Below are positions 31,832 to 47,129 of a stretch of 64,000 nucleotides of DNA, piece after piece. A program made the position numbers and the translations under genes. Source of the stretch: an uncultured Poribacteria bacterium (GTDB lineage Bacteria; Poribacteria; WGA-4E; PCPOR2b); NCBI GenBank assembly GCA_958296125.1, contig OY282444.1, positions 3,629,623 through 3,693,622 on the forward strand, in the 5' to 3' direction. Position 1 is the first letter of the stretch, and the number at the start of each line of letters is the position of its first letter. The notes under the pieces were generated by a model. That model worked only from the letters and a program-made list of their open reading frames with translations. It did not search any database and was not told the DNA's origin.

Positions 31832-31918
31832 GGACTTATGTGCACTGTTCCATAAGGCGAAAAGCCGAAATACATCAGAAAAGGTAACATTTTACACGCG
31901 AAAATGCCAAAGTTGTTT

Positions 31919-32026
31919 CCATTTCAGACTTGAGAGTCCTACCATAGTTAGATTGTAGGGGCAAGCCTTGTGCTTGCCCTTTTTTTATAGTTTCTATCTC
32001 ATAGTAGAGCTGCTTGCCACAGTCAG
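31919..32026 (-). repeat. Two decayed CRISPR repeats beyond the trailer end
   Basis: At 31990-32026 an ungapped 37-base stretch matches the array repeat at about 25 positions (it begins GTTTCTATCTCAT and ends CAG). At about 31919-31950 a second, shortened match reads TTTCA...TTGAGAGTC...CATAG. The spacings of 71 and 83 bases to the next repeat approximate array units (about 74). They extend the array past its last recognisable repeat. Confidence 0.55.
31958..31986 (+). terminator. Rho-independent terminator-like hairpin after the PhyH gene
   Basis: GGGGCAAGC and GCTTGCCC form a stem around CTTGT and are followed by seven T residues. It would end plus-strand transcription from 29732-31831 before the array. 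It sits between the two decayed repeats. Confidence 0.7.
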
Positions 32027-32072
32027 ATCCCTCTACCCTTCCATCCCTTCACGCTTCCATCCTAAGTGTTTC

Positions 32073-34719
32073 ATTTCAATCTCATTATTGAGAGTCTTGT
32101 CATTGATAGTGAACCGGCGTGCTTCTTCGGCTGCGACTGCCATGGGTTTCAATCTCATTATTGAGAGTCTTGTCATTGATAGGCTTTGCCCCTGATTGGC
32201 TGCATGGTATTGCCCATAGTTTCAATCTCATTATTGAGAGTCTTGTCATTGATAGGCGGTGCGATCAAGGTCAACCGGCGGCGTAAACATGTTTCAATCT
32301 CATTATTGAGAGTCTTGTCATTGATAGAACCCGAAATTCTCAACGATAGAATCGCGACAAGCTGGTTTCAATCTCATTATTGAGAGTCTTGTCATTGATA
32401 GACAAACGGTACCGAATGCCTTGCCCTTGCCCTTGATACTCTCGTTTCAATCTCACTATTGAGAGTCTTGTCATTGATAGATACGTATCCCCTGTGATAG
32501 GAATCCGCATGGCTACGTTTCAATCTCATTATTGAGAGTCTTGTCATTGATAGGAAAGCAAACCCTCCTCGCACCATCCGCATTGACTATTTGTTTCAAT
32601 CTCACTATTGAGAGTCTTGTCATTGATAGAAAACACCTGGCAAGAGTGCGAATGGGGTTTTGTCAAGTTTCAATCTCACTATTGAGAGTCTTGTCATTGA
32701 TAGGTATCACCAGTGGAGGCATCAGGAGTAGGCTCCTCTACGTTTCAATCTCACTATTGAGAGTCTTGTCATTGATAGAAGGTTGATGAAGTGAAGAGAA
32801 TCGAATCTAAAAAGTTTCAATCTCACTATTGAGAGTCTTGTCATTGATAGGGAGACAACAGATGAATGAGACAGTGTTTTTCGCTATGTTTCAATCTCAC
32901 TATTGAGAGTCTTGTCATTGATAGTCAACGGCTGGTTGGGCGGTCATGTCAGTCGCCAGATGTTTCAATCTCACTATTGAGAGTCTTGTCATTGATAGGA
33001 CCATATACCAGGTCTGACAAACTCATCGCCGGGTGTAGTTTCAATCTCACTATTGAGAGTCTTGTCATTGATAGCGCTTCGCCGTCCAGCGCTTGATCGG
33101 GGAGGGCATGGTTTCAATCTCACTATTGAGAGTCTTGTCATTGATAGATATTACAATCACCCCCGACGATGCGGCGAACACCATGTTTCAATCTCACTAT
33201 TGAGAGTCTTGTCATTGATAGGTTAATCTTGGGGAGGCAGGCTGATGGCGTTTGAAAGTTTCAATCTCACTATTGAGAGTCTTGTCATTGATAGCGGTTC
33301 GGGTAAGTGAAGCTCTAGAAGATATCATAACTGTTTCAATCTCACTATTGAGAGTCTTGTCATTGATAGTACACACTGAGCATAGCGTTGGTTCGCTTCC
33401 CGTATAGAGTTTCAATCTCACTATTGAGAGTCTTGTCATTGATAGGACTCGACACAAGCCGTGACGGTATGGATATCCACTAAAGTTTCAATCTCACTAT
33501 TGAGAGTCTTGTCATTGATAGTTTGAAGATGCGAACGCCGCAACGATCGTGATTAGCCTAACCGTTTCAATCTCACTATTGAGAGTCTTGTCATTGATAG
33601 AGCGGTTCAAGCGGTTCAAGCGGTTCAAGGAACCGAAGTTTCAATCTCACTATTGAGAGTCTTGTCATTGATAGTCCCATACCCGTTATACACCGAGCCC
33701 CCATGCTCCATCAGTTTCAATCTCACTATTGAGAGTCTTGTCATTGATAGCCAGAGCCATACGAAGATCCCGACTTGGAAGTTAATTTGTTTCAATCTCA
33801 CTATTGAGAGTCTTGTCATTGATAGCAAACGAGATGAATTCTTTGCAGTCAAAAAGGAATGTTTCAATCTCACTATTGAGAGTCTTGTCATTGATAGATC
33901 TGACGAGACCAAAATCGATAGTTGCGAAGTGTATTAGGGTTTCAATCTCACTATTGAGAGTCTTGTCATTGATAGTCAAAAGAAAGCAAATACCCGCATG
34001 GTCGACAGTTGATAATGATCGTTTCAATCTCACTATTGAGAGTCTTGTCATTGATAGTTGTTCAAACGGGTTAGGGCTGCTTTGGCTCATGTCAGGTTTC
34101 AATCTCACTATTGAGAGTCTTGTCATTGATAGGACGCAAGGAGGGAAGGAACGCTTAGGCTGTAAAATGTTTCAATCTCACTATTGAGAGTCTTGTCATT
34201 GATAGGATGAATCCGTAAAGTGAACAATACACGACAACGCTGTTTCAATCTCACTATTGAGAGTCTTGTCATTGATAGGGCGACTGTCGGGACGATTGCC
34301 CTTGCGATATGATTGTTTCAATCTCACTATTGAGAGTCTTGTCATTGATAGTCACTACGATCCGTATTACCGCTCCCCAGACCATCAAGGTTTCAATCTC
34401 ACTATTGAGAGTCTTGTCATTGATAGGCTTGCCAAGCCGTCTGGATCGTTTGATTCTCTCTTGTTTCAATCTCACTATTGAGAGCCTTGTCATTGATAGG
34501 GGGGGGTGGACCGTGCCACGCCGCAAAGCGTAAAGGTTTCAATCTCACTATTGAGAGCCTTGTCATTGATAGTTAGATGGCACCGGCACCAACCGGGTCA
34601 GGGGTGGAGTTTCAATCTCACTATTGAGAGCCTTGTCATTGATAGTCGCAATTTTGCGAGCCCAAACTGTATCTGCTATCACGTTTCAATCTCACTATTG
34701 AGAGCCTTGTCATTGATAG
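32073..34719 (-). CRISPR. CRISPR array, 36 repeats of 37 bases and 35 spacers
   Basis: Repeats start every 72-82 bases from 32073 to 34683, with spacers of 35-45 bases. In the transcribed (minus) sense each repeat starts CTATCAATGACAAGACTCTC and ends AGTGAGATTGAAAC: a TCTCA/TGAGA stem with an ATAG loop, then the 8-base handle ATTGAAAC usual for Cas6-cut crRNA. The leader lies at 34720-34939 next to cas2. Variants are ordered: the four leader-proximal repeats carry GGCTCTC instead of GACTCTC; six trailer-end repeats (32073, 32146, 32219, 32291, 32365, 32517) have an ATAA loop; the last repeat (32073) ends ATTGAAAT. One spacer (33601-33637) is a tandem of AGCGGTTCA. Confidence 0.98.
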
Positions 34720-34939: not shown

Positions 34940-35212
34940 TTACACAATGTATGACTTCCTGTCAACCTCTTTTTCGACACCAATCCGTTCAACTCCCTTC
35001 TCACAGGAACGGCATAGGTGGTAGAAGGTGACAGAATCCTCCTGTAGGTTAATCGCCTCCATAAGCCGATGCTGCAAACGAAGGTAGGCACGTCGATCGG
35101 TGCTGCACTCAAAGAGACTGTATTGGATGCGTGTACCGAAATCCAGCAAAATTTTGGCAACTGCGTTTCGCCGCCGGTCATTGGTAATATCATAAGCAAC
35201 AGCGTAAAACAT
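34940..35212 (-). CDS. cas2: CRISPR-associated endonuclease Cas2
   Basis: A 90-aa ferredoxin-fold protein that pairs with Cas1 in spacer acquisition. The ATG at 35210-35212 is nine bases from GAGGAGG; the GTG six bases earlier is too close. It starts MFYAVAYDITNDRRRNAVAK with the family Asp (D9) and continues RIQYSLFECSTD. It is the last cas gene and lies next to the leader. Confidence 0.93.
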   Translation of the reverse strand: MFYAVAYDITNDRRRNAVAKILLDFGTRIQYSLFECSTDRRAYLRLQHRLMEAINLQEDSVTFYHLCRSCEKGVERIGVEKEVDRKSYIV

Positions 35213-35315
35213 TATCACAGACCTCCTCTATAACATGCCATGATTACTCACAAAAGAACCCGAAATCCGAAGCGAAAAACTTCTTCCAACCTTCCATGTT
35301 TCCCTCTCTGTGGAC

Positions 35316-36953
35316 TCATCGAACTGTCAGCGGTGTATAGGTCTCAATCTCTCCCATAAGACACTTGGCGAGCAGTCGCACTTGTAATTCAAGCGCGCGG
35401 CGAAAGCTAATTTTGTACTTGAAAACGGGATGTGTAATCGTCTCATTTTTGCGCCTCTCATAGGCAGCGTAAAACTTCTTGCGAGCCGGGTCTTTAAGAA
35501 ACCAACCGCCGTGAGATTGGGTGAAGTCGTTTGGCGTAATTTGCCTATTATTGATGAGCGTTACCACCACCGAATCGGCAATAATCGGGCGAAATTCTTC
35601 CATCAGATCCAGCGCGAGACAGGGGCGTCCGTAAGTCTGTTGGTGGAAGAAGCCGACATAGGGGTCAAGTCCGACGGTTTGGATTGCGGAGATAACATCT
35701 GCGGTCAGTAGGGAGTAGGCAAAACTGAGCAGCGCGTTGGTCGAATCTTTGGGAGGACGTCGAGTGCGATGTTCAAAACTGAACCCCATCTCCGTGTTCA
35801 GTATTGATGAGAAAGATCGAAAATAGTCCGCCGATGCATTTCCCTCAAACCCAAGTAATTCGGAGAGATTTTCCGCTTTAGGGAGGCGTCCTCGCATTTT
35901 CCGCATGCCTTCTATACTTGATTCGATAGTGGCTTCTTCGGCATCTGTTTCGGGCTTACCTCGCCATTTCCGGCGTTGGAGCATCATCCGCATGTTACTA
36001 ATTTTGCCATGTACAAACGTCTTCGCAAGCGCGAGGCACTTCTCCTGGTCATCTGCGACCCGATGTTGAGCGACGCGTAGGAGCGAATTTCGAGAGATTT
36101 GTGGCATCAGTACACCCTGATAGCGTCCGTATGCGGAGAGGTAAACGATGGGAATCCCTTCGTTGAGCAAGGTCTGCATCACTGGGGTTGTCACACTGAT
36201 GTTTCCACAAAGCACAACCTGCCCCAGGTGGATGAGTGGGATGTCACGGATGGTTTCCCCCTCTTTGACCACGAGCAGGCGTGCCCCAGTCTTTTTGAGG
36301 ATGCAGCCCTGTTCGTCGACATACAACACGTTATCAATACCGAGGGCGGGCTTGATCCGTTTGGGCCGGTCGTCCAGTTCGTTGAGGTAAGCGACCTCGT
36401 CCGGCAGGCAGATCCCCCGGACGCTACACCCGTTGCATCGGTTATCGTGGACCGGTTCGGGAATCTTTCTGGTCTGCAACAGCGATTCCGCGTCCGAGAC
36501 AAAGTCACGGCTGATCTGCCGCAGTTCCGCATCAAATACTACCTTGCGGCGGCGTTTAGAACCGATATAGTAGATATAGCCGTGAGGGACCACCGTGCCA
36601 GTGCTCTCTTCGATCAACATCCCTTGTAGACAGAGTTGGACCTGATCGTTGAGCCAGTTGCCCGTGCCGGCTTTCTTATATTCGACAGGGCACGATACCC
36701 CCTTCTTCTCTTCAATCAGATCGAGATAACCGGAGACACCCAGCGTGTCAGAGGCGAGATATTGACGACGAGAGACTTTCACCCCCCGCTCATTACGGTT
36801 TTTCATCTCCGTATCAACGCGGGCATGTTTGATTTTCCCTTCCTCAACATGCTCGTTAATCACTTGGTGCCCCTCAACGGATTCGTAGTAGAATCGGCGT
36901 GGACAGAAAACGTAAGTGTTTATCTGCGAAAGCGGTATGTAAGTTTCGGACAT
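35316..36953 (-). CDS. cas4-cas1: Cas4-Cas1 fusion protein
   Basis: A 545-aa fusion of two adaptation proteins. The Cas4 half (1 to about 195) has C17 in YVFCPRRFYYE, the RecB-type nuclease residues D78 (GYLDLIE) and E91-x-K93 (PVEYKKA), and C173, C176 and C182 to complete the iron-sulfur site. The Cas1 half (about 200-545) has the metal ligands E370 (GFEGNASADYF), H437 (FFHQQTYGRP) and the acidic LDLMEEFRP. Cas4 selects and trims PAM-containing prespacers, and Cas1-Cas2 integrates them. Fusions of this kind are known in several type I systems. Confidence 0.96.
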   Translation of the reverse strand: MSETYIPLSQINTYVFCPRRFYYESVEGHQVINEHVEEGKIKHARVDTEMKNRNERGVKVSRRQYLASDTLGVSGYLDLIEEKKGVSCPVEYKKAGTGNWLNDQVQLCLQGMLIEESTGTVVPHGYIYYIGSKRRRKVVFDAELRQISRDFVSDAESLLQTRKIPEPVHDNRCNGCSVRGICLPDEVAYLNELDDRPKRIKPALGIDNVLYVDEQGCILKKTGARLLVVKEGETIRDIPLIHLGQVVLCGNISVTTPVMQTLLNEGIPIVYLSAYGRYQGVLMPQISRNSLLRVAQHRVADDQEKCLALAKTFVHGKISNMRMMLQRRKWRGKPETDAEEATIESSIEGMRKMRGRLPKAENLSELLGFEGNASADYFRSFSSILNTEMGFSFEHRTRRPPKDSTNALLSFAYSLLTADVISAIQTVGLDPYVGFFHQQTYGRPCLALDLMEEFRPIIADSVVVTLINNRQITPNDFTQSHGGWFLKDPARKKFYAAYERRKNETITHPVFKYKISFRRALELQVRLLAKCLMGEIETYTPLTVR

Positions 36954-37066: not shown

Positions 37067-37906
37067 CTACCTCCTCCTTGTCTGTCCCATCCCCATCGTT
37101 GTTTTGTAGCCGGTGCCGCAATAGAAAGCGAAATCAGCGAGCAGGTTCGCCAAACGTAACATCTCAGTGGATCCCTCACCATCGGATTGACGCTCCACGA
37201 AAAATTGGTATGCACAACTTCCAACAAATCCGATCGCCTTATGTTTGCCGAAATCGAGCATCCGGCTCTTGCTGTCAACCGCCGTTAGCCCGGCGTGATG
37301 TGCCACGAAATCGAGAAGGGGCTGCTTATCAATCTGCATCGGTGCAAAGGCGTTCCATTTGTTAACCCAGCTCTGATAGCAACGCACGAGGTCGATATGC
37401 GACTGATTGCGCGTTTTTTGCCCACGCGGCGACAGCTCCCGAAAGGCAGTCGGCGAATAGAATCGCACCCGCATCCGAGTCTCTGTCCCCGCAGATTCAA
37501 TCAGGTCCTCATAAGTCTTTGTGCCACTCCAATTATTACTTTCTGTCCCAGAGGCAACCATTCGGCTCAGTTGAAAGGTTGCTCCCCCGAGCCGAATGGA
37601 CGGTAGACTCTGCGTCAAGAAGGCGTTGCCGAAGTGGGCGAAAAGTGCATCGTCAAGAAATGTGAAGCGGAGCCAGCATTCTGTGCCAGCGCGGATTCGC
37701 AGGAAATTACCACGCCGTTCCCCGTTGCCAATCAACGGCGAAACGGTGAACGGTTTCTGCGCGGATATGGCGTGAATTTCTTCCGCCTTTTCCGGGTCGC
37801 CAATTCGCAGCAGCGAGAGAAACGCGCCGTGCGCGTGATGCCCCATCGTCGGACGCAAGGTGACATCTTCGGGGGGGATGAGGTGGATGACGGTGCTGAT
37901 AGGCAT
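37067..37906 (-). CDS. cas6: CRISPR repeat-processing endoribonuclease Cas6
   Basis: A 279-aa RAMP protein that would cut the array transcript 8 bases from the repeat 3' end. The C-terminal glycine-rich loop YCGTGYKTTMGMGQTRR is the family hallmark; histidines near the N-terminus (MGHHAHGAF) could be catalytic. AAGGAGG lies just upstream of MPISTVIHL. It lies 11 bases after cas3' and 113 before cas4-cas1. Type I-D and I-B Cas6 proteins have this size. Confidence 0.9.
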   Translation of the reverse strand: MPISTVIHLIPPEDVTLRPTMGHHAHGAFLSLLRIGDPEKAEEIHAISAQKPFTVSPLIGNGERRGNFLRIRAGTECWLRFTFLDDALFAHFGNAFLTQSLPSIRLGGATFQLSRMVASGTESNNWSGTKTYEDLIESAGTETRMRVRFYSPTAFRELSPRGQKTRNQSHIDLVRCYQSWVNKWNAFAPMQIDKQPLLDFVAHHAGLTAVDSKSRMLDFGKHKAIGFVGSCAYQFFVERQSDGEGSTEMLRLANLLADFAFYCGTGYKTTMGMGQTRRR

Positions 37907-37917
37907 GGGGAACCTCC

Positions 37918-39807
37918 TTAATCAAGGTTCAAAAAGGTCAACTGTTCACCGCCTTCTGAAGGAGGTTCAACAGATTTTACTTGTTGTGCCGGTTCTGTGT
38001 CAGTCTCTTCCGATTGATTAGAAATTGTGGTGTCTTCTGGCATGGGTGTCGCCAAGTCTCGCAGATAATGCAACCAGATTTTTCGAGGTTCGCGGTTTTC
38101 ATCGGTTGTATTATAGATAAAATTTTGCCGATACCCACTAATACCCCCGTATTCAAAAACTTTGGGGAGCTCATTATAACCTAACTCTTCAGAAAAGTAA
38201 GATTCAGGCACCTCAACAAAGAGTTCTTTAAAGTAAACATTACCGCCAAAGTTAAGTGGCACAAACTTGAATTCTTCGTGATAGTCATCATAAGAGCGTT
38301 GGTACACCTTAAAATTCGGATTCACAACTTCGTCGTTTTGTGTATTTGCGATACAACTTCGGAGCGACACGCTGACAGCGTTTTTTGGTCGGTGTTCAGG
38401 TGATTCGGGGACCTTAGTTGTGAGAGTAATTGAAGGTTCAAAACTCCGAGTAATAACAAGGCCCCTATCGTGAAGAGGTTTGTTTTCAAGGCGCGCTTCA
38501 TAGACATACTCATATAGCATGTCAAAGAGCACTTCCGCCCTATAGTCAGAGTGCGGCTCGTATCTCATAACTTTGAGGATTTCGTCCGGACTGAACCTGT
38601 CTCCATCCAGCTTTTGCAAGATTTGAAGATATTCCTTCTCCATTTCTTGAGAAATGTTAGAGAGACGTATCTTGTTTCCCACAACAATGATTTCAGCGTC
38701 CGGAATTTTGCCATTGCGGTTGCATCTGCCTGCCCGTTGGATGAGTTGATCGGGGTTGCACAACTCTGTAATAAGCAGATTTGCATCAAGGTCACACCCT
38801 ACCTCAATTGCACTTGTTGTAAAAAGGAGATAACCCTCATTTTTCTTTAACTTACCATAGACCCTTTTGCGTTGCAGATTGGATAGTCGTCCGTGGTAGA
38901 GAAAAATGTTCTCATCGCCGCTCCGCTCTTTCATATACTGGTAAGCCGGAATAAGGTCTTGAATCGTTTCAATGGTGACAATGGTCCGCTTACTTGGATC
39001 GTACCGCTGCGATATGCAGGCACAGATTTCGTCCCGAACCTTTCCCCCTGGCTCCACACTAATGCGCTTAATTGACTTGTTAGGATGCTGCCGCTTCTGC
39101 TTTTGTTCCTGCCAACTTTCTAGTTCTCGTTGATTCTCACCTGTGGTATAATCCACTTTATCTAAGAAATCCAATTCCTCTTGGTACGCGTCAGGCATTG
39201 TCGCAGTCATGACAACTATATCCAGATTGGCTTTGTAGAGTGCCTTAATGAGCCGTTCAAAGTTGACAAACGCAACCCCATCATAGGAATGGACTTCGTC
39301 AAAACAGAAAAGATTCTGCCGTTGACTGTGGTGAATCCGGAACGGGTAGATATAAGATTTTATGGGTTCACCAAATCCAAAAAAGCGATACAGGAACTTG
39401 TCAAACGTTGTGAGGATAACATCGCCATCGTAGAGATGGCGATTTCCTTTTTCCATTTCTTTGCCAGTCTTAAAAACGGTGCGTTCAGACTCGGCTCCTG
39501 TGTCAACAACTAGCGCATAAGATTTTCCCAGCTTTTCTGATGTACGCTGGAGGTACTCTGTGCATCGGCCAATCTGGTCTTCAACAAGACTCCGCGAAGG
39601 AAAGATCAGAAATAGGCGACGAGGGCACTCTGCGGCGAAGCTTGGCACAAGGACTGCCTCTGTTTTTCCACTGCCTGTGGGTGCCTTGAGTAGAATCGCA
39701 GGATTCTTCTCTTTCGGAGCAATGAGAGCAAAAAGTTTATCCTGCATCGGGTTCGGCTCGAATTTTGTGCCTGCAATCTGTTGATACGCCTCTAATACGC
39801 TTTGCAT
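37918..39807 (-). CDS. cas3: Cas3' helicase of type I-D character
   Basis: A 629-aa superfamily 2 helicase without an HD domain. The start MQSVLEAYQQ at 39807 has GGAAGG ten bases upstream; the ATG at 39831 has none. Motifs: Walker A APTGSGKT (42-49), DEVH (170-173), TAT (201-203), and motif VI QRAGRCNR. The DEVHSYDG box and overall length match the helicase-only cas3 of type I-D (cyanobacterial subtype) systems. It overlaps the HD nuclease gene by 16 bases, so nuclease and helicase are translated together as separate proteins. Confidence 0.9.
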   Translation of the reverse strand: MQSVLEAYQQIAGTKFEPNPMQDKLFALIAPKEKNPAILLKAPTGSGKTEAVLVPSFAAECPRRLFLIFPSRSLVEDQIGRCTEYLQRTSEKLGKSYALVVDTGAESERTVFKTGKEMEKGNRHLYDGDVILTTFDKFLYRFFGFGEPIKSYIYPFRIHHSQRQNLFCFDEVHSYDGVAFVNFERLIKALYKANLDIVVMTATMPDAYQEELDFLDKVDYTTGENQRELESWQEQKQKRQHPNKSIKRISVEPGGKVRDEICACISQRYDPSKRTIVTIETIQDLIPAYQYMKERSGDENIFLYHGRLSNLQRKRVYGKLKKNEGYLLFTTSAIEVGCDLDANLLITELCNPDQLIQRAGRCNRNGKIPDAEIIVVGNKIRLSNISQEMEKEYLQILQKLDGDRFSPDEILKVMRYEPHSDYRAEVLFDMLYEYVYEARLENKPLHDRGLVITRSFEPSITLTTKVPESPEHRPKNAVSVSLRSCIANTQNDEVVNPNFKVYQRSYDDYHEEFKFVPLNFGGNVYFKELFVEVPESYFSEELGYNELPKVFEYGGISGYRQNFIYNTTDENREPRKIWLHYLRDLATPMPEDTTISNQSEETDTEPAQQVKSVEPPSEGGEQLTFLNLD

Positions 39808-40592
39808 AAAATCATATCCTTCCGCTGACATTTCGTATAGGTGTGTGCCTTAACAATTAGTTCACGTAGATGGCTCAACCCTTTTTGCGAACTATCTCCT
39901 GTTAGTGCCTGGGCTATCTGACAACGGTCTTCCTTGGGCATATCAAATTGATAATATGTAAGGGATAGAGGAATCCCCTCATTTTCGCCCTCGTTGCCGA
40001 ATGGATAGGGGGTAACTTCAACCCTTCCCTCTTTGGGCATACGCGAGTGAAAATCCATAAAGACACGTGGTTGTACATTGCCTGTGAACGCGTATGTTTC
40101 AATCTCCGCCTCAATCTGATCGCACATTTCTAGGATGTAAAGGTCAAGAAGAAAGCTTTCAATCTTTTCTTTGGAGAACCCTGAATTGGAAAGTTCAAAC
40201 TGGGCTTTAACGATACCTTCGACGGAAAATTCGTGATGCAGCCGGATAAGCAGTTCAACATAGAGATTGGGATCAAAAACCCTAAAACGGTGACCTGCAA
40301 AGGAGTAGCCTAGGGATTTGGGGGTGCTCCCTTTCCAACCCCGATAAGTTAGGCGAAAGGTTTCCGGTTTCGCGTCGTCATGTTTTTGGGCCGCGCGTAC
40401 CAGCAGGTCGCGAGTTTCTTGGGCACCCCATTTAAAGGTTGGATAGAAATCTCGCCGAAACTTTTCCACCAACTTGACAACATTTCCAACGTGGCTCTCC
40501 AGAGTGAGCACAGTAACGGTTTCTATATCCGGCCCACTATCCGGTCTAAAGAAAACCCGACCAACCTTAACTGTATCTATTGTATTAGTCAC
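39792..40592 (-). CDS. cas3'': Stand-alone HD nuclease Cas3''
   Basis: A 266-aa protein starting at GTG 40590-40592, seven bases after AAAGGAG. The open frame runs further upstream through cas5 but the GTG is well supported. It contains a complete HD set: H34, H71-D72, H101, H119/H120 and D158 (LEMCDQIEAEIE). It overlaps the cas5 stop by 8 bases and cas3' by 16. In standard type I-D this domain is the N-terminus of Cas10d; here it is a separate gene next to the helicase, as in type I-A. Confidence 0.85.
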   Translation of the reverse strand: MTNTIDTVKVGRVFFRPDSGPDIETVTVLTLESHVGNVVKLVEKFRRDFYPTFKWGAQETRDLLVRAAQKHDDAKPETFRLTYRGWKGSTPKSLGYSFAGHRFRVFDPNLYVELLIRLHHEFSVEGIVKAQFELSNSGFSKEKIESFLLDLYILEMCDQIEAEIETYAFTGNVQPRVFMDFHSRMPKEGRVEVTPYPFGNEGENEGIPLSLTYYQFDMPKEDRCQIAQALTGDSSQKGLSHLRELIVKAHTYTKCQRKDMILCKAY

Positions 40593-41370
40593 CTTCTGCT
40601 CCTTTCCGCAATTCATCAACGAACGGTCGCGGGAGGTACACTGTCCCATCCGTATAGTAATCGAGTTCAATCTCCCCTTGAACTTCTCCGGCAACAAAGG
40701 GAATGAATCCTTTAATAGAACTGGGTTCAGGGTGTTCAAGGGGTGTATCTGGGGAGGGCTTCCCTTCCCAAGCATAACGATACAGTGAAAACGCTTCGCA
40801 TGGAATCCCGACGAGTTCGGTCCCGGGCAAGAGTGTATCAGGTTCAGCGCGTGTTCGTTCCAAGGCGAGTTGGGTCGGCCCGCAAATCCTATCCACAAAA
40901 GCGTATCCCTCTTTGCCGATTTTACAACCGAAGTTTTTAACCGTTTTCAATTGGCTCAGGAGCTCCTCGTCTTCCGAAACCACGTAACCAATGAGTTTTT
41001 CAACAAAGAGGTATTCCCACGTGTGGAGTTGATAGTTTTCTTCTTGTTTCCTTTTATAGCCAACGATTCGCGAGAAGGTACTGTGGTTGAAAGCCTTCAT
41101 CCCCTGTCGCTTTGTTGTATGGACACAATACCCTCGTGCCTTGGGATATGCCCCAAGTGGACAAAGTTGGGGCGGCAAGGCGTAATAATCCGGATCTTTG
41201 ATAGCGGTTTCCGGGAAATGCCCAGCTCCCAGCAGCTTCAAGCGGCGCAAAAAGCCGGACATCGTTGTCGGCGGTAGAAACGGATAGGTACTGATATGCA
41301 GGATGGACGACGGCATCCGTCGAAATGTCAATCCTGATGTCGGTTTAATTTCCAGTTTCAGCATCCACAT
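40585..41370 (-). CDS. cas5: Cas5 family protein (Csc1-like)
   Basis: A 261-aa RAMP protein that should cap the 5' handle of crRNA in the Cascade complex. The start MWMLKLEIK at 41370 is nine bases after GGAGG. The N-terminal strand is followed by YPFLPPTTMSGFLRRL, the proline-rich segment usual in Cas5 proteins. Assignment to the I-D Csc1 branch rests on its position next to a Csc2-like gene. It overlaps cas7 by 26 bases. Confidence 0.8.
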   Translation of the reverse strand: MWMLKLEIKPTSGLTFRRMPSSILHISTYPFLPPTTMSGFLRRLKLLGAGHFPETAIKDPDYYALPPQLCPLGAYPKARGYCVHTTKRQGMKAFNHSTFSRIVGYKRKQEENYQLHTWEYLFVEKLIGYVVSEDEELLSQLKTVKNFGCKIGKEGYAFVDRICGPTQLALERTRAEPDTLLPGTELVGIPCEAFSLYRYAWEGKPSPDTPLEHPEPSSIKGFIPFVAGEVQGEIELDYYTDGTVYLPRPFVDELRKGAEGD

Positions 41371-42316
41371 TGCTAAGTACCTCCGTTTCAAAACTGACTA
41401 GATACTCCGATATCTTTGCGATAGCGGCATTCCCGACGTATCGGTGGAAGTTCCCTTGGGTCAATTCGCTGTCAGATGGCTGTTCGCTCCCGGCAATTGA
41501 AAAAACAGCCTTCTTGAACTGAGCTTTCGCCAAGTCAACATCTGTAATGGCGGGCGAAACCACAGGCCGCTTGCCAAGTGGGGCGAGATACCGGTCAATG
41601 ACAAGCCACGGTTCATCCTCATCTAGTTTCGTAAGCGGAGCATCATGGATCTTAACCCCTTTGGGATTGCCCGCTCCCAGACGTGCCAATGCCCCCATAA
41701 ACGCGTAAGCAACAGCGGAGAATTCACGGTCCGTCATACTCACACAATGATTGTAAACTGGATAGAGAAGCCCCGGTTGATTATACTCTCGTTTGAAAGG
41801 GGTTGGTGTCGGGTCCGCTTCGGGGGGTTTCCGCATGATTGAAGGATGCATCGCACGCTGCTTCTCCTCGGGGCCCAACGCCTGAATTGCAACTCCGCCG
41901 CTATGCGTCAAGCGGCCAATAAGTGTGGTTGGAGGACGTTTTTCGCCTTCAATCTCAGTTGCACTTGTAATCAGTCCACCAAAGACACGGCAGATTGGAC
42001 ACTCGGCTTTGCTACAAGTGTGTGGAATACCGCAGTTCAGTCCATCACCCAGCAGTCCAGTTCCAGTTGGTGCCCAAATTAGCGAGCGCCGTTCAACACC
42101 ACGCCGCTTGGTCGGGGAGAGATAGCATTTCTCAAGTTCGTTGGCCTCGGTGTCATTAGATACCGGGATAGTAACCATCTCGACGATGTTGACATTCACC
42201 TGCGTCTCATGTCCGAAGAAGAGTTCCTGGCCCCCTTCAAGAATTGCGTAAATGTCAAAGTGGAATCGCGGTTCGTCGGTGTAAGTCTCAAGTCCAGATT
42301 TCACGTTAATTGCCAT
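41345..42316 (-). CDS. cas7: Cas7 family backbone protein, Csc2-like
   Basis: A 323-aa protein expected to coat the crRNA spacer in six or more copies. AAGGAGA precedes MAINVKSGLETYT. The central segment WAPTGTGLLGDGLNCG, followed by a possible zinc site (C95, H99, C101, C106 and C109), and the DREFSAVAYAFMGALARLGAG region agree with Csc2, the Cas7 of type I-D. It lies 17 bases downstream of the large-subunit gene. Confidence 0.85.
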   Translation of the reverse strand: MAINVKSGLETYTDEPRFHFDIYAILEGGQELFFGHETQVNVNIVEMVTIPVSNDTEANELEKCYLSPTKRRGVERRSLIWAPTGTGLLGDGLNCGIPHTCSKAECPICRVFGGLITSATEIEGEKRPPTTLIGRLTHSGGVAIQALGPEEKQRAMHPSIMRKPPEADPTPTPFKREYNQPGLLYPVYNHCVSMTDREFSAVAYAFMGALARLGAGNPKGVKIHDAPLTKLDEDEPWLVIDRYLAPLGKRPVVSPAITDVDLAKAQFKKAVFSIAGSEQPSDSELTQGNFHRYVGNAAIAKISEYLVSFETEVLSNVDAETGN

Positions 42317-42333: not shown

Positions 42334-42792
42334 CTAGTTGAATAGGGAGGCGAACTTCGTATAAAGGTTAAGTTTGAGCTGATAAAACAACTTTCTCTGT
42401 TCAGCCTTGTTATATCTTTGAGATAACTCGGCGTAAGCGTTGAGAATGTCGTCAAAGTAAATTACTAGATGCTCCTGCCCTTTCTCATTATGTTCTTCAC
42501 GACTGGATAACTCCAATTTAAGCGTTCCTTGCAATAGTCGCTTTGCTTGATCGTAGCAGAAGTAGTTATCATCGTTGCGGAACATCGTTGCGCGCGTACC
42601 GGGGAGTATATCAGAAGCTTCGTAGTTGAAGAAACTAGCGTTCGCAACTTTCTCGATCAGTTTTTTGACTTCGCGTTGTACCGTATCGCGAGTTTTTGAT
42701 TTTTCGAGTTCCCCGCGGACGTAATGACAATAAGCGTAGGTCAATCCGGTAAGCGCGGCGACATCGTAAAAAAATGCTGCTTTTTTGACCAT
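42334..42792 (-). CDS. cas11d: Putative internally translated Cas11-like small subunit
   Basis: Inside the large-subunit gene and in the same frame, AAAAGGAG (42801-42808) is followed after eight bases by ATG (42790-42792). This is a better ribosome site than that of the full gene. The product would be the C-terminal 152 aa (MVKKAAFFYDVAALTGLTYA...), mostly helical, the right size and fold class for Cas11. In type I-D, I-B and I-C systems the small subunit is known to be made from an internal start of the large-subunit gene. Confidence 0.7.
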   Translation of the reverse strand: MVKKAAFFYDVAALTGLTYAYCHYVRGELEKSKTRDTVQREVKKLIEKVANASFFNYEASDILPGTRATMFRNDDNYFCYDQAKRLLQGTLKLELSSREEHNEKGQEHLVIYFDDILNAYAELSQRYNKAEQRKLFYQLKLNLYTKFASLFN

Positions 42793-44541
42793 GAGTTTAT
42801 CTCCTTTTGAGGATTGCTCAAGTAAAGTACAGTGTTTTTCCCGGAGCTCCTCAAGACTCCGTTTTTCACTATATGACCAATCATAGATTGGTGTTGCTTC
42901 AGTGGATTCTGCGGTTGCCAATTTATACATAGCAGAAATCACTTCATCTTTCTGAATGAGCCGAATCGCTTGACATAACTGCATATTATCTTTACGGTTC
43001 ACGATAAGACGAGGTGAAAAACTTTCTTGGAGATGACTAAGCCAAACTAGATATCGACTTGGTAACAAAATCTCCGATTCGCCTGCAAAAAGCGTAAAAT
43101 CCATCTTTTCAAGCGCGCCAACGGGAAGAGTTCTGGCGACTCTCCAGAGTGTATACTGCACCTGCCCGATTTTTTCTGAAACGGGTGTTGAACCCCCGCG
43201 CTCGCGTACAAATTCGCGGCAGTTCATCAGTAAATATCGTCCGGCAATCAGATTCATTTCACCAAGGGTTAGCATCTGGAGATATTTTTCAGGTAATACC
43301 TGTTGGTTCTCCTCGCCAGTTTGTGGTGCCAAACGAACGATAATCGCGCCGCCTGCTAGTTTAATCGGGCAACCGAAAGCAACCGTAAGGCAGTTAGGGC
43401 AAATAGACGCTTTAGGGCGGTCTTGCGCGTTCCCTGATTGCAACCTTTGAGAGGGATCTGAAAAGACAAATCGGTTTGCCGTTAGGTTGCCCTTAAAGTG
43501 GTGGGTCTCGCTTTTGGGTGGTAAATACCTGCCACAACTGTAGCAACGGTTTCTGGCTGTATCACCAGCACCGTGGGTGTGGTTTTGCGCCATTTCGTCA
43601 ACTGAAGCAAGTGGACAGGCCAGAATACTAACAGGTTCATTCAAAATCTCAATAATTTTATCTTCAATTTTTCCTTTTTTTGAGCGAGGTTTCACCGTAC
43701 CGTAAGAAAATTGGCTTGAACCAGTTCGGTTGAATTGATGAGAAAGCCTTACCGCTTTGTCGAAACTGAGCCTATTGGTTCGCAGCTCAGCGCGCAAACC
43801 GGCTAGGAGTTCCCTCAGTTCTTCACTATTCGCTTTGAAGGCAGTCTTGCGCTCCTCGTCGGTTTTGGCTTTCTTATAGTTGTCGGGGTATCGAACAACT
43901 CTTTCCTCAAGTGTTGCAATGTAAAAGGCGGCTTGCCAAAGCTTCATCGCTTCTGTTACCGATGGAAAGTGAACGTAACCAAAACCTCTATTAGTCAACT
44001 TCATGCTATTCACAAATAACGTAAAGGACTTATATAAATCTTCTTCTGAATAAGCAAATTGAATGAACTGTTGCCATTCATTCTCAATCTGAAAATTTGT
44101 CTTTGGTATAAACAGGGTAACTGTCAATCGATTTTCTGAAAGACGGATAGCACATTTTTCCTGCTGTAGGAATCCCATGAACCTTTCAATCAACGTGTCA
44201 TAAGCAAGCCTAATCTGAATCTCTTGCGGAAGTATGGTCCGGTAATAACTATAGGTTTTCCCAATCGGCTTGTCCTTAAAGATGATTATGTCTCCATGCT
44301 GGGACAGCAGGTCAAGCGGGCTCGGCGGGCACTTATCAGTTTCTGATTTATATTTCATTATCTGCTTAGCATACCGTAGGACGCGCAATGCCTCCATTTC
44401 ATCCCACCACTGTTTGAGTTGTTCGGACTTTCCTCTGTGTTGCATCCAGTTTACGAATACCTCAAGGTCCCCTGTGAGTTCATCTTGTTTTGTCGCTGCA
44501 AGGTGAGCAGCGAAAATCTTTTCTCTCTGTTGGGCATTCAT
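42334..44541 (-). CDS. cas10d: Cascade large subunit, Cas10d/Csc3-like but without HD domain
   Basis: A 735-aa protein at the head of the cas operon. It has a pair of CxxC motifs (C333/C336 and C381/C384), as in Cas10 and Cas8 large subunits, a helical C-terminal domain, and no HD or GGDD motif. Gene order and the Csc2/Csc1/helicase partners point to type I-D, where the usual Csc3 is about 900-1000 aa with an N-terminal HD; adding the separate 266-aa HD protein gives about 1000. AAGGAG lies 12-13 bases before the ATG. An internal start at 42792 (see next feature) could add a small subunit. A Cas8 identity cannot be excluded. Confidence 0.75.
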   Translation of the reverse strand: MNAQQREKIFAAHLAATKQDELTGDLEVFVNWMQHRGKSEQLKQWWDEMEALRVLRYAKQIMKYKSETDKCPPSPLDLLSQHGDIIIFKDKPIGKTYSYYRTILPQEIQIRLAYDTLIERFMGFLQQEKCAIRLSENRLTVTLFIPKTNFQIENEWQQFIQFAYSEEDLYKSFTLFVNSMKLTNRGFGYVHFPSVTEAMKLWQAAFYIATLEERVVRYPDNYKKAKTDEERKTAFKANSEELRELLAGLRAELRTNRLSFDKAVRLSHQFNRTGSSQFSYGTVKPRSKKGKIEDKIIEILNEPVSILACPLASVDEMAQNHTHGAGDTARNRCYSCGRYLPPKSETHHFKGNLTANRFVFSDPSQRLQSGNAQDRPKASICPNCLTVAFGCPIKLAGGAIIVRLAPQTGEENQQVLPEKYLQMLTLGEMNLIAGRYLLMNCREFVRERGGSTPVSEKIGQVQYTLWRVARTLPVGALEKMDFTLFAGESEILLPSRYLVWLSHLQESFSPRLIVNRKDNMQLCQAIRLIQKDEVISAMYKLATAESTEATPIYDWSYSEKRSLEELREKHCTLLEQSSKGDKLMVKKAAFFYDVAALTGLTYAYCHYVRGELEKSKTRDTVQREVKKLIEKVANASFFNYEASDILPGTRATMFRNDDNYFCYDQAKRLLQGTLKLELSSREEHNEKGQEHLVIYFDDILNAYAELSQRYNKAEQRKLFYQLKLNLYTKFASLFN

Positions 44542-45222: not shown

Positions 45223-46191
45223 TTAATTCTTTCGATATACCTCTACCATCTTCTCCGCTGTCTCCGCCACCCATTCTCGCAATTCTTTCGGTTCAATCAC
45301 CTCTGCCTCATCTCCCCACCCCAAAACCCACCAACCGACTTCCTGCCAGCCCGCGACTGTGGCTTCAAAGCGTAGGCTCCCAGCGTTTTCGTGTATCTCC
45401 TGCGTTGAGTGCCAGTGCACCTCTCGGATGAGAGGGGCGATGCGCGGCGCGAACTCAATAACGACGTGTGTCTCCGGGCCAAGCCTGAAAGCCCAACTCT
45501 TCTCCATATATCGCTGCACGGAGAAATCTTCGGGGATCGTATAGGGGGCAGAGCTGATGAAGAGAGAGTCAATGCGGTTGATGCGGAAAGTTAGAATCTT
45601 ATTTAATCTTTCAGTGGATCCAATCACATACCATGCGCGTCTGCGAAACAGGACTGCATACGGTGAAAGCCGATGCTGCTCCCGCCTTCCACTGCTGAAA
45701 GAATTATATGCCATGTTGACCTTGCGCCGTTTCCGAATCGCTTCGTATAGCTTCTCTTTATGCAATTGCGTTTCATCGATTTGGCTGACCTGTTGATGTG
45801 GAACTTCAATCTGTGGAGCAATTTGGCTTAAAGTTTCGTTTGTCTGCTTTGGTAAATTCGAGGTGATTTTATGGATGGCACTATTGAGAACCTCTATTGC
45901 CTGCTCCCCTTCTGCTGCCTGATAAAAACGGGCTGCTGTAATGAGTGCGAGTGCCTCCTCAAAGTTAAGATTGGGGATAGGGAGGAAAAAGTCGGAGGTC
46001 ATTTCGTATCCCTGTTTGCCACATGGATTAATCTGGATTTCCATGCCACGCAACAGATCAATATCACGTTGGATGGTTCCTTTATCGACTCTAAGGTGTG
46101 CTGCCAACCGAGGGCGGGTCCACCGACGCGGTTCGTTGTGAATAAGGGACGCGATTTTGATGATTCGCGCCATCTGATATGTTCGGTACAT
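45223..46191 (-). CDS. WYL-domain transcriptional regulator
   Basis: A 322-aa regulator. The ATG at 46189-46191 (MYRTYQMARIIKIASLIHNE) follows AAAGGAT; the frame upstream to 46377 is rejected because it would overlap the neighbouring gene and has no ribosome site. An N-terminal winged helix (RPRLAAHLRVDKGTIQRDID) precedes a WYL domain (RREQHRLSPYAVLFRRRAWYVIG) and a C-terminal WCX-like part. WYL proteins near CRISPR loci regulate cas genes by sensing ligands such as nucleic acids. It lies 200 bases upstream of the mini-CRISPR promoter on the same strand. Confidence 0.9.
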   Translation of the reverse strand: MYRTYQMARIIKIASLIHNEPRRWTRPRLAAHLRVDKGTIQRDIDLLRGMEIQINPCGKQGYEMTSDFFLPIPNLNFEEALALITAARFYQAAEGEQAIEVLNSAIHKITSNLPKQTNETLSQIAPQIEVPHQQVSQIDETQLHKEKLYEAIRKRRKVNMAYNSFSSGRREQHRLSPYAVLFRRRAWYVIGSTERLNKILTFRINRIDSLFISSAPYTIPEDFSVQRYMEKSWAFRLGPETHVVIEFAPRIAPLIREVHWHSTQEIHENAGSLRFEATVAGWQEVGWWVLGWGDEAEVIEPKELREWVAETAEKMVEVYRKN

Positions 46192-46265
46192 GGTATCCTT
46201 TTGGTGCCTTTTGGGCAGGGTGCCCCTACCAAATAACTCATCCTTCCTTTCCATACGCATTGGTG

Positions 46266-47129
46266 TTATTTGTTGCTTTCTTGGGTCGCCTTCTTCGCTT
46301 GACTTGCAAGCCGCCCAGCTTGTTTTGCCAATCGCTTGGCTTCCTCGATCCGTTTCATCAAGGCGCGGTTCGTCCACGCAACGCCAGCCAAATACCGAAT
46401 CTCCTTGCCGTTGGTCGCTGATGCGTTCAACGCCTCTGCAGCAAGATAAACCTGCAAACCACTATCTGCAATATGGCGGAGTCCTGTATTAACACCCCTA
46501 CCATCAACCTCAACGCTGAAAGTCAGACTGCCCCGTGCAAAGGCGGGGTGAAAATCTTTACTGATACCCAAGAACGCGCCGTTCAATACTTGGCTGATAC
46601 CAATATCTTCGACAAAACGGCGATTCCCGATACCGATATGGCCCGTAATATGATGAATACGTGGTAGGGTGAACTGCTTGCTAACCGCAAGGAACGCGGA
46701 CTTGCGTTCGTATCGCTCCATATCTTTCAGTTCGCTCTCAACACTGTCGCCGATATTTTCCAGTCCGACTGCGACGTTGGGAACAACCCCAGTCTCGCGG
46801 AGCAGAAGCACTTTGAGATTTCCCAATAAAAAACTCCGTTGATTGTGTCGAACATTTGTCAAACCAATCTCGACACGATCGAAAAGCCCAAAATCGAGTT
46901 GGAGTGCAACTTCGTCGCGGGGCAATTCGCTGGCGTTACGAAAGCCAAAGTAAGTTCCAAGGTTAAATACCCCATGTTCGATAACCTTGCCCGTCGGTAT
47001 GTCTACCAATCCACTAGCCCGGTAATAGGGAGCAGCCCACAGACGAGGTGAACAAAGTATGGTAACGCAAAACAGAGAAATGATTAGCCGTTGCAGCCCA
47101 ATCGGAAAAGCATTATAAATGAAATTCAT
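46266..47129 (-). CDS. Exported outer-membrane beta-barrel-like protein
   Basis: A 287-aa protein with a signal peptide (LIISLFCVTILCSPRLWA) followed by alternating beta strands (YYRASGLVDIPTGKVIEHG, DFGLFDRVEIGLTNV, ARGSLTFSVEVDGRG). The pattern resembles YjbH/Gram-negative barrel proteins. The C-terminus is a lysine/alanine-rich helix (RLAKQAGRLASQAKKA). Role unknown. It lies 74 bases upstream of the WYL gene and could be co-transcribed with it. Confidence 0.6.
   Translation of the reverse strand: MNFIYNAFPIGLQRLIISLFCVTILCSPRLWAAPYYRASGLVDIPTGKVIEHGVFNLGTYFGFRNASELPRDEVALQLDFGLFDRVEIGLTNVRHNQRSFLLGNLKVLLLRETGVVPNVAVGLENIGDSVESELKDMERYERKSAFLAVSKQFTLPRIHHITGHIGIGNRRFVEDIGISQVLNGAFLGISKDFHPAFARGSLTFSVEVDGRGVNTGLRHIADSGLQVYLAAEALNASATNGKEIRYLAGVAWTNRALMKRIEEAKRLAKQAGRLASQAKKATQESNK

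Follow-up and report, generated by a model that had tools for sequence, protein, structure and literature searches.

Translation of the small subunit Cas11 from a start codon inside the large-subunit gene is an established feature of type I CRISPR systems. It is known from types I-B, I-C and I-D, as the first-pass annotation of the present locus had stated and as the literature bears out (PMC11096372, PMC11899642, PMC10212523), and it has been described as widespread there; the case predicted here is a further member. Such genes within genes include Cas10d/Cas11d in the type I-D system of Synechocystis 6803 and Cas8c/Cas11c in type I-C (PMC10212523; PMC7684278). In type I-B, the Cas8b (Cmx8) of Synechocystis sp. 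PCC 6714 carries an internal ribosome site that yields a Cas11b of less than 15 kDa, present in three copies per Cascade, and structures of this complex with its Cmx8/MYXAN Cas8b are available (PDB 8H67, 8IP0; PMC11096372). In Haloferax volcanii, mutation of the start codon traced the type I-B Cas11b to an internal ATG (Met545) of cas8b, behind a weak Shine-Dalgarno (SD)-like GGATG (PMC11899642).

The DNA analysed here, called the window below, is a stretch of 64,000 nucleotides from the genome of an uncultured Poribacteria bacterium, assembled as a single contig of 5.16 Mb. It holds an operon that runs entirely on the minus strand, in the order cas8b, cas7b, cas5b, a gene for an HD-like protein, the Cas3' helicase gene, cas6, cas4-cas1 and cas2, and then a CRISPR array. 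With the regulator upstream, the features are:

45223..46377, minus strand: WYL-domain regulator, upstream of the operon (PF13280, PF25583)
42334..44541, minus strand: cas8b large subunit, 735 aa (PADLOC PDLC01527 Cas8b, CAS-I-B effector_LS, E=5e-119)
41345..42316, minus strand: cas7b backbone subunit (PADLOC PDLC01388 Cas7b, E=3e-106)
40585..41370, minus strand: cas5b (PADLOC PDLC01389 Cas5b, E=7e-75)
39792..40616, minus strand: HD-type nuclease, putative Cas3'' (by eye, from ...KHDDAK... and position)
37918..39831, minus strand: Cas3' helicase (NCBIfam TIGR01587, 155 bits, above cut-off; PADLOC Cas3d, E=5e-59)
37067..37906, minus strand: cas6 (Pfam PF19308/PF10040 and TIGR01877, above cut-off; PADLOC Cas6d, E=4e-39)
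35316..36953, minus strand: cas4-cas1 fusion (NCBIfam NF049935 cas4g_cas1g, 637 bits, cut-off 560)
34940..35218, minus strand: cas2 (TIGR01573, PF09827)
32073..34645, no strand assigned: CRISPR array with the 37-nt repeat GTTTCAATCTCACTATTGAGAGTCTTGTCATTGATAG, ~36 copies at a spacing of 72-82 nt

Cas8b, Cas7b, Cas5b, Cas6 and Cas3 make up a type I-B effector module, the HD part of Cas3 (Cas3'') being recognised by eye. The large subunit is assigned to Cas8b by its PDLC01527 match, which falls into two stretches, the best aligning residues 301-733 to positions 358-750 of the 759 in the profile. Searches of Pfam and NCBIfam gave this protein no family at a meaningful score, and PDB sequence searches with Cas8b, its profiles, a Picosynechococcus homologue, Cas7 and Cas5 found no relative. 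Cas8b also contains a CxxC...CxxC zinc-binding-like motif (C333/C336, C381/C384). The likely start of cas5b is the ATG at 41370, behind a GGAGG. The HD-like protein between cas5b and the Cas3' helicase contains ...AAQKHDDAKPETF... and has no family match in Pfam, NCBIfam, PADLOC or PHROGs; it is probably Cas3'', and Cas3 would then be split into Cas3' and Cas3'', whereas Synechocystis 6714 has a single Cas3 gene.

The operon also has a likeness to type I-D, as PADLOC I-D profiles for Cas1, Cas2, Cas4, Cas6 and Cas3 score well on it. Its large subunit nevertheless matches Cas8b, the sole PADLOC match with none in NCBIfam, and shows no Cas10d profile and no recognised HD domain, the HD-like protein being separate. 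Since PADLOC gives Cas8b, Cas7b and Cas5b, Cas11b of type I-B is a more apt comparator than the Cas11d of type I-D that had first been proposed. As a whole the locus is a mosaic, with a Cas4-Cas1 that scores as type I-G (Cas4g/Cas1g), a I-B effector and I-D-like Cas2, Cas6 and Cas3'. At the low-coordinate end of the array, two strongly degenerate repeat units (~61-73% alike) occupy 31909-32027.

No separate small-subunit gene was found in the operon, either among its open reading frames or among NCBIfam, Pfam and PADLOC matches, in line with what had been noticed at first reading; there is no room for a separate cas11, because cas7b begins 17 nt downstream of cas8b. An in-frame start with a ribosome site of its own lies near the 3' end of cas8b. 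On the minus strand, an ATG with its A at 42792 stands 8 nt behind AAAAGGAG; the minus-strand sequence CCTCAAAAGGAGATAAACTCATG around 42790-42812 is the complement of catgagtttatctccttttgagg on the plus strand. The ATG is codon 584, in frame with the 735-codon ORF at 42334-44541, and its product would be residues 584-735 of Cas8b (152 aa, 17.9 kDa, pI 8.7). Site, eight-base spacing, start position and product length agree exactly with those initially read from the sequence. The features within cas8b are:

42334..42792, minus strand: predicted internally started Cas11b (ATG kept in 10/10 lineage representatives; isolated domain pLDDT 86.7, pTM 0.81)
42801..42808, minus strand: internal Shine-Dalgarno AAAAGGAG (sequence; SD energy; synonymous windows ranking 1, 3 and 4 of 492)
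42766..42861, minus strand: raised synonymous conservation, codons 561-592 (synonymous identity)

The 16S rRNA of the same genome has the 3' end ...GGATCACCTCCTTTCT, so the AAGGAG of the internal site pairs with the genome's true anti-SD. Computed against this anti-SD, the internal site reaches -8.9 kcal/mol, close to the cas7 start (-9.0 kcal/mol). The start of full-length cas8b, where AAGGAG stands at a long spacing of 14 nt from the ATG, has -6.4 kcal/mol, which confirms that the internal site is the stronger of the two.

In the cmx8 gene of Synechocystis 6714, carried on pSYLB, the 3' part contains a single strong internal ATG, at codon 428 (AAAAAGGAGATTTTGACATG; SD -8.9), with a product of 14.5 kDa and pI 8.6. 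This mass fits the reported band of less than 15 kDa, and codon 428 therefore appears, from size and site, to be the Cas11b start. The start TCAAAAAGGAGATTTTGACATG is nearly identical to TCAAAAGGAGATAAACTCATG in the window and equal to it in computed SD strength, and in both loci the internal site lies towards the 3' end of cas8b, a separate small-subunit gene is absent and the encoded product is basic. They differ in length, Cas11b having 124 aa in Synechocystis 6714 and 152 aa here. An hhalign comparison with Cmx8 was not significant (Prob 0.3% for the large subunits, 0.7% for the C-terminal domains); the short stretch that it aligned, likewise non-significant, occupies comparable positions in the two Cas11 regions. 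Haloferax volcanii shares the in-frame start within cas8b, but there the host is archaeal and Cas11b experimentally demonstrated, whereas here it is predicted.

Taken singly, such a site is unexceptional. In 293 ORFs sampled from ~464 kb of the same genome (400 kb of stretches together with the window), there are ~5.9 internal in-frame ATGs per gene, and 3.7% of the 1,742 ATGs have an SD at least as strong. With about six candidates per gene and a peptide that favours the motif, the site judged alone was rejected as evidence. To a large extent the SD motif follows from the encoded peptide SSKGDKL, an equal or better SD arising in 36% of the synonymous recodings of this peptide, and support for an SD beyond this constraint is modest in single genes (combined P=0.004 over all genes, P=0.035 over 10 representatives). 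Both percentages lend weight to a reading in which the C-terminal domain is never free but acts within full-length Cas8b, like the fused small subunits of types I-F and I-G, the SD-like motif being a by-product of a K-G-D/E-K hinge. The weak SDs of several cyanobacterial members (CY313, CY346 and Picosynechococcus, -2.9 to -4.2 kcal/mol) point the same way. What speaks against it is the behaviour of the site across homologues.

The homologues come from Poribacteria (seven more genes), another phylum (two genomes, G180 and G193), Cyanobacteria (seven genes, two Picosynechococcus plasmids included) and Thermus thermophilus plasmids. The closest are in Candidatus Poribacteria MAGs, and a search of viral contigs found no cas8b homologue. 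An in-frame ATG is present in 20/20 of the homologous genes examined, which span four phyla and have an intact 3' part, 8-15 codons upstream of a conserved D-V-A-x-L/M-T/A-G-L motif. It is retained in every one of them despite a changing hinge, the peptide that leads into it reading KGDKLM, KGENSKM, VGM, IHM, GNNM, GETM, GESM or EGDM. As the Met occupies differing alignment positions in an unconserved peptide, it is the start codon that is kept and not the residue. Ten lineage representatives with a median pairwise identity of 31% have the ATG in 10/10, at 6 different offsets, and in eight of the ten the SD energy is -4 kcal/mol or lower. The first-pass annotation had made its prediction depend on the survival of both SD and Met in homologues, and both survive: beside the ATG, a GGAG-like site occurs in most of them, even with unrelated amino acids around it. 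Indels alter the peptide in L018 and L020, yet SD and ATG are retained; in Thermus HB8 the internal start reads AAAAGGAGGTGGGCATG and in the G180/G193 genomes TTGGAGGTATGGATYCACATG. Elsewhere among 169 conserved anchor columns, same-site neighbours excepted, the maximum is 8 ATGs with 1-2 SDs (1 SD in the best alternative that does not overlap the site), and the product of the per-gene ATG chance probabilities, which assumes independent lineages, is ~1e-10.

The Picosynechococcus and Thermus thermophilus members of PDLC01527 are direct homologues, sharing ~31-33% identity with the query where the two match, with the same order cas8-cas7-cas5-cas3-cas6 and an internal ATG in the hinge. They are annotated as 'hypothetical protein', no small-subunit gene is annotated in their loci, and our literature search found no report of Cas11 from them. 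On two Thermus thermophilus plasmids (L054:2119-4167 and L056:2119-4173), cas8b is annotated only as a protein of ~264 aa from an internal start; a full frame of ~683 codons is open, and the database start is probably wrong. One Poribacteria homologue (L012, G030:C40) was considered as a natural test and dropped: its cas8b joins cas7 directly and out of frame, with loss of the Cas11 part, through either a deletion in a decayed locus or an assembly join.

Constraint at the nucleotide level was followed in six Poribacteria genes, in which synonymous constraint within cas8b peaks at the codons of the ribosome site. When the 492 five-codon windows are ranked by synonymous conservation, those over the SD take places 1, 3 and 4 (P=0.0004 relative to random codons, P=0.002 relative to codons after 500), and codons 577-582 (TCC TCA AAA/AAT GGA GAT/GAC AAA) are almost invariant. 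Synonymous identity is ~0.81 over codons 561-577, 0.93 over 578-582 and 0.82 over 584-592, against a background of 0.49 (codons 401-560) and 0.60 (593-735); the constrained zone, 561-592, would roughly coincide with a translation-initiation region. A domain used only as part of Cas8b accounts neither for this constraint nor for the persistent ATG, and the operon encodes no other small subunit, so that we regard the fused form as improbable. Still less credible is the making of Cas11 by proteolytic cleavage in the Cas8b hinge, which is poorly conserved and probably flexible, or from an internal transcript, in either case independently of initiation within the cas8b mRNA, as proteolysis leaves the conserved ATG and the synonymous codons over the SD unexplained and a promoter scan, limited to the sigma-70 consensus, found no minus-strand site upstream of 42792.

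Structure prediction gave a more mixed picture. The model of the 152-aa piece, built from seven sequences, is confident and mainly helical, with five helices and a small three-strand part, which speaks for the prediction; its comparison with Cas11, whose fold is an alpha-helical bundle, produced no decisive match in Foldseek or VIA-align. Foldseek returned no Cas11 relative for the model (best E 0.43). VIA-align aligned the small-subunit protein Cmr5 (2zop) over 92 residues at Z 4.2 and rmsd 5.1, below unrelated helical proteins; its highest-ranked matches, at Z ~5-7, are helical proteins such as ribosome recycling factors, and the tool warns that values of this size are common. The full-length Cas8b model was poor (pLDDT 48.8) and was for this reason not used for fold searches. 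One might go further and see here a small subunit structurally distinct from known Cas11, a helical protein of ~150 aa that carries a small beta insertion and has no relative of solved structure. It would be either independent in origin of the Cmx8-type Cas11b or too diverged from it to be recognised, and each Cas8b lineage would have retained the internal start or evolved it anew; we consider this whole reading rather unlikely.

We conclude that cas8b very likely makes two proteins, Cas8b and an internally started Cas11b. Internal Cas11 translation is favoured to this degree by the conserved ATG, the mostly GGAG-like SDs, the synonymous constraint, the lack of a separate gene and the Synechocystis precedent taken together. 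Ribosomes would start at the ATG at 44541 to produce the 735-aa large subunit, and a second start on the polycistronic mRNA, at 42792 behind AAAAGGAG, would release the C-terminal domain as free Cas11b; this second start is well supported by the sequence comparisons. The internal start would probably be used more often, leaving Cas11b in excess. By analogy with the I-B, I-C and I-D precedents, from which its production, copy number and role are taken, several copies of Cas11b may line the inner belly of Cascade beside the C-terminal domain of Cas8b and may stabilise the displaced (non-target) DNA strand of the R-loop.

On this reading, gene-within-gene Cas11 would also occur in a Cas8b family of Poribacteria, Cyanobacteria and Thermus for which no structure has been solved. 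Some of its genes may already be covered by McBride et al. 2020, reportedly the primary survey of such sites. There is also a practical side, as the predicted internal start of Thermotoga cas8b1 failed in E. coli (PMC13199841). In rebuilt Cascades, for example one from the Thermus HB8 plasmid system used as a DNA-targeting tool, Cas11 should be supplied as its own gene, because a foreign host may not use the internal start (PMC13199841). The analysis supplies a concrete start codon that would be cheap to test. More generally, a start codon conserved against a changing peptide would offer a clean route to hidden subunits.
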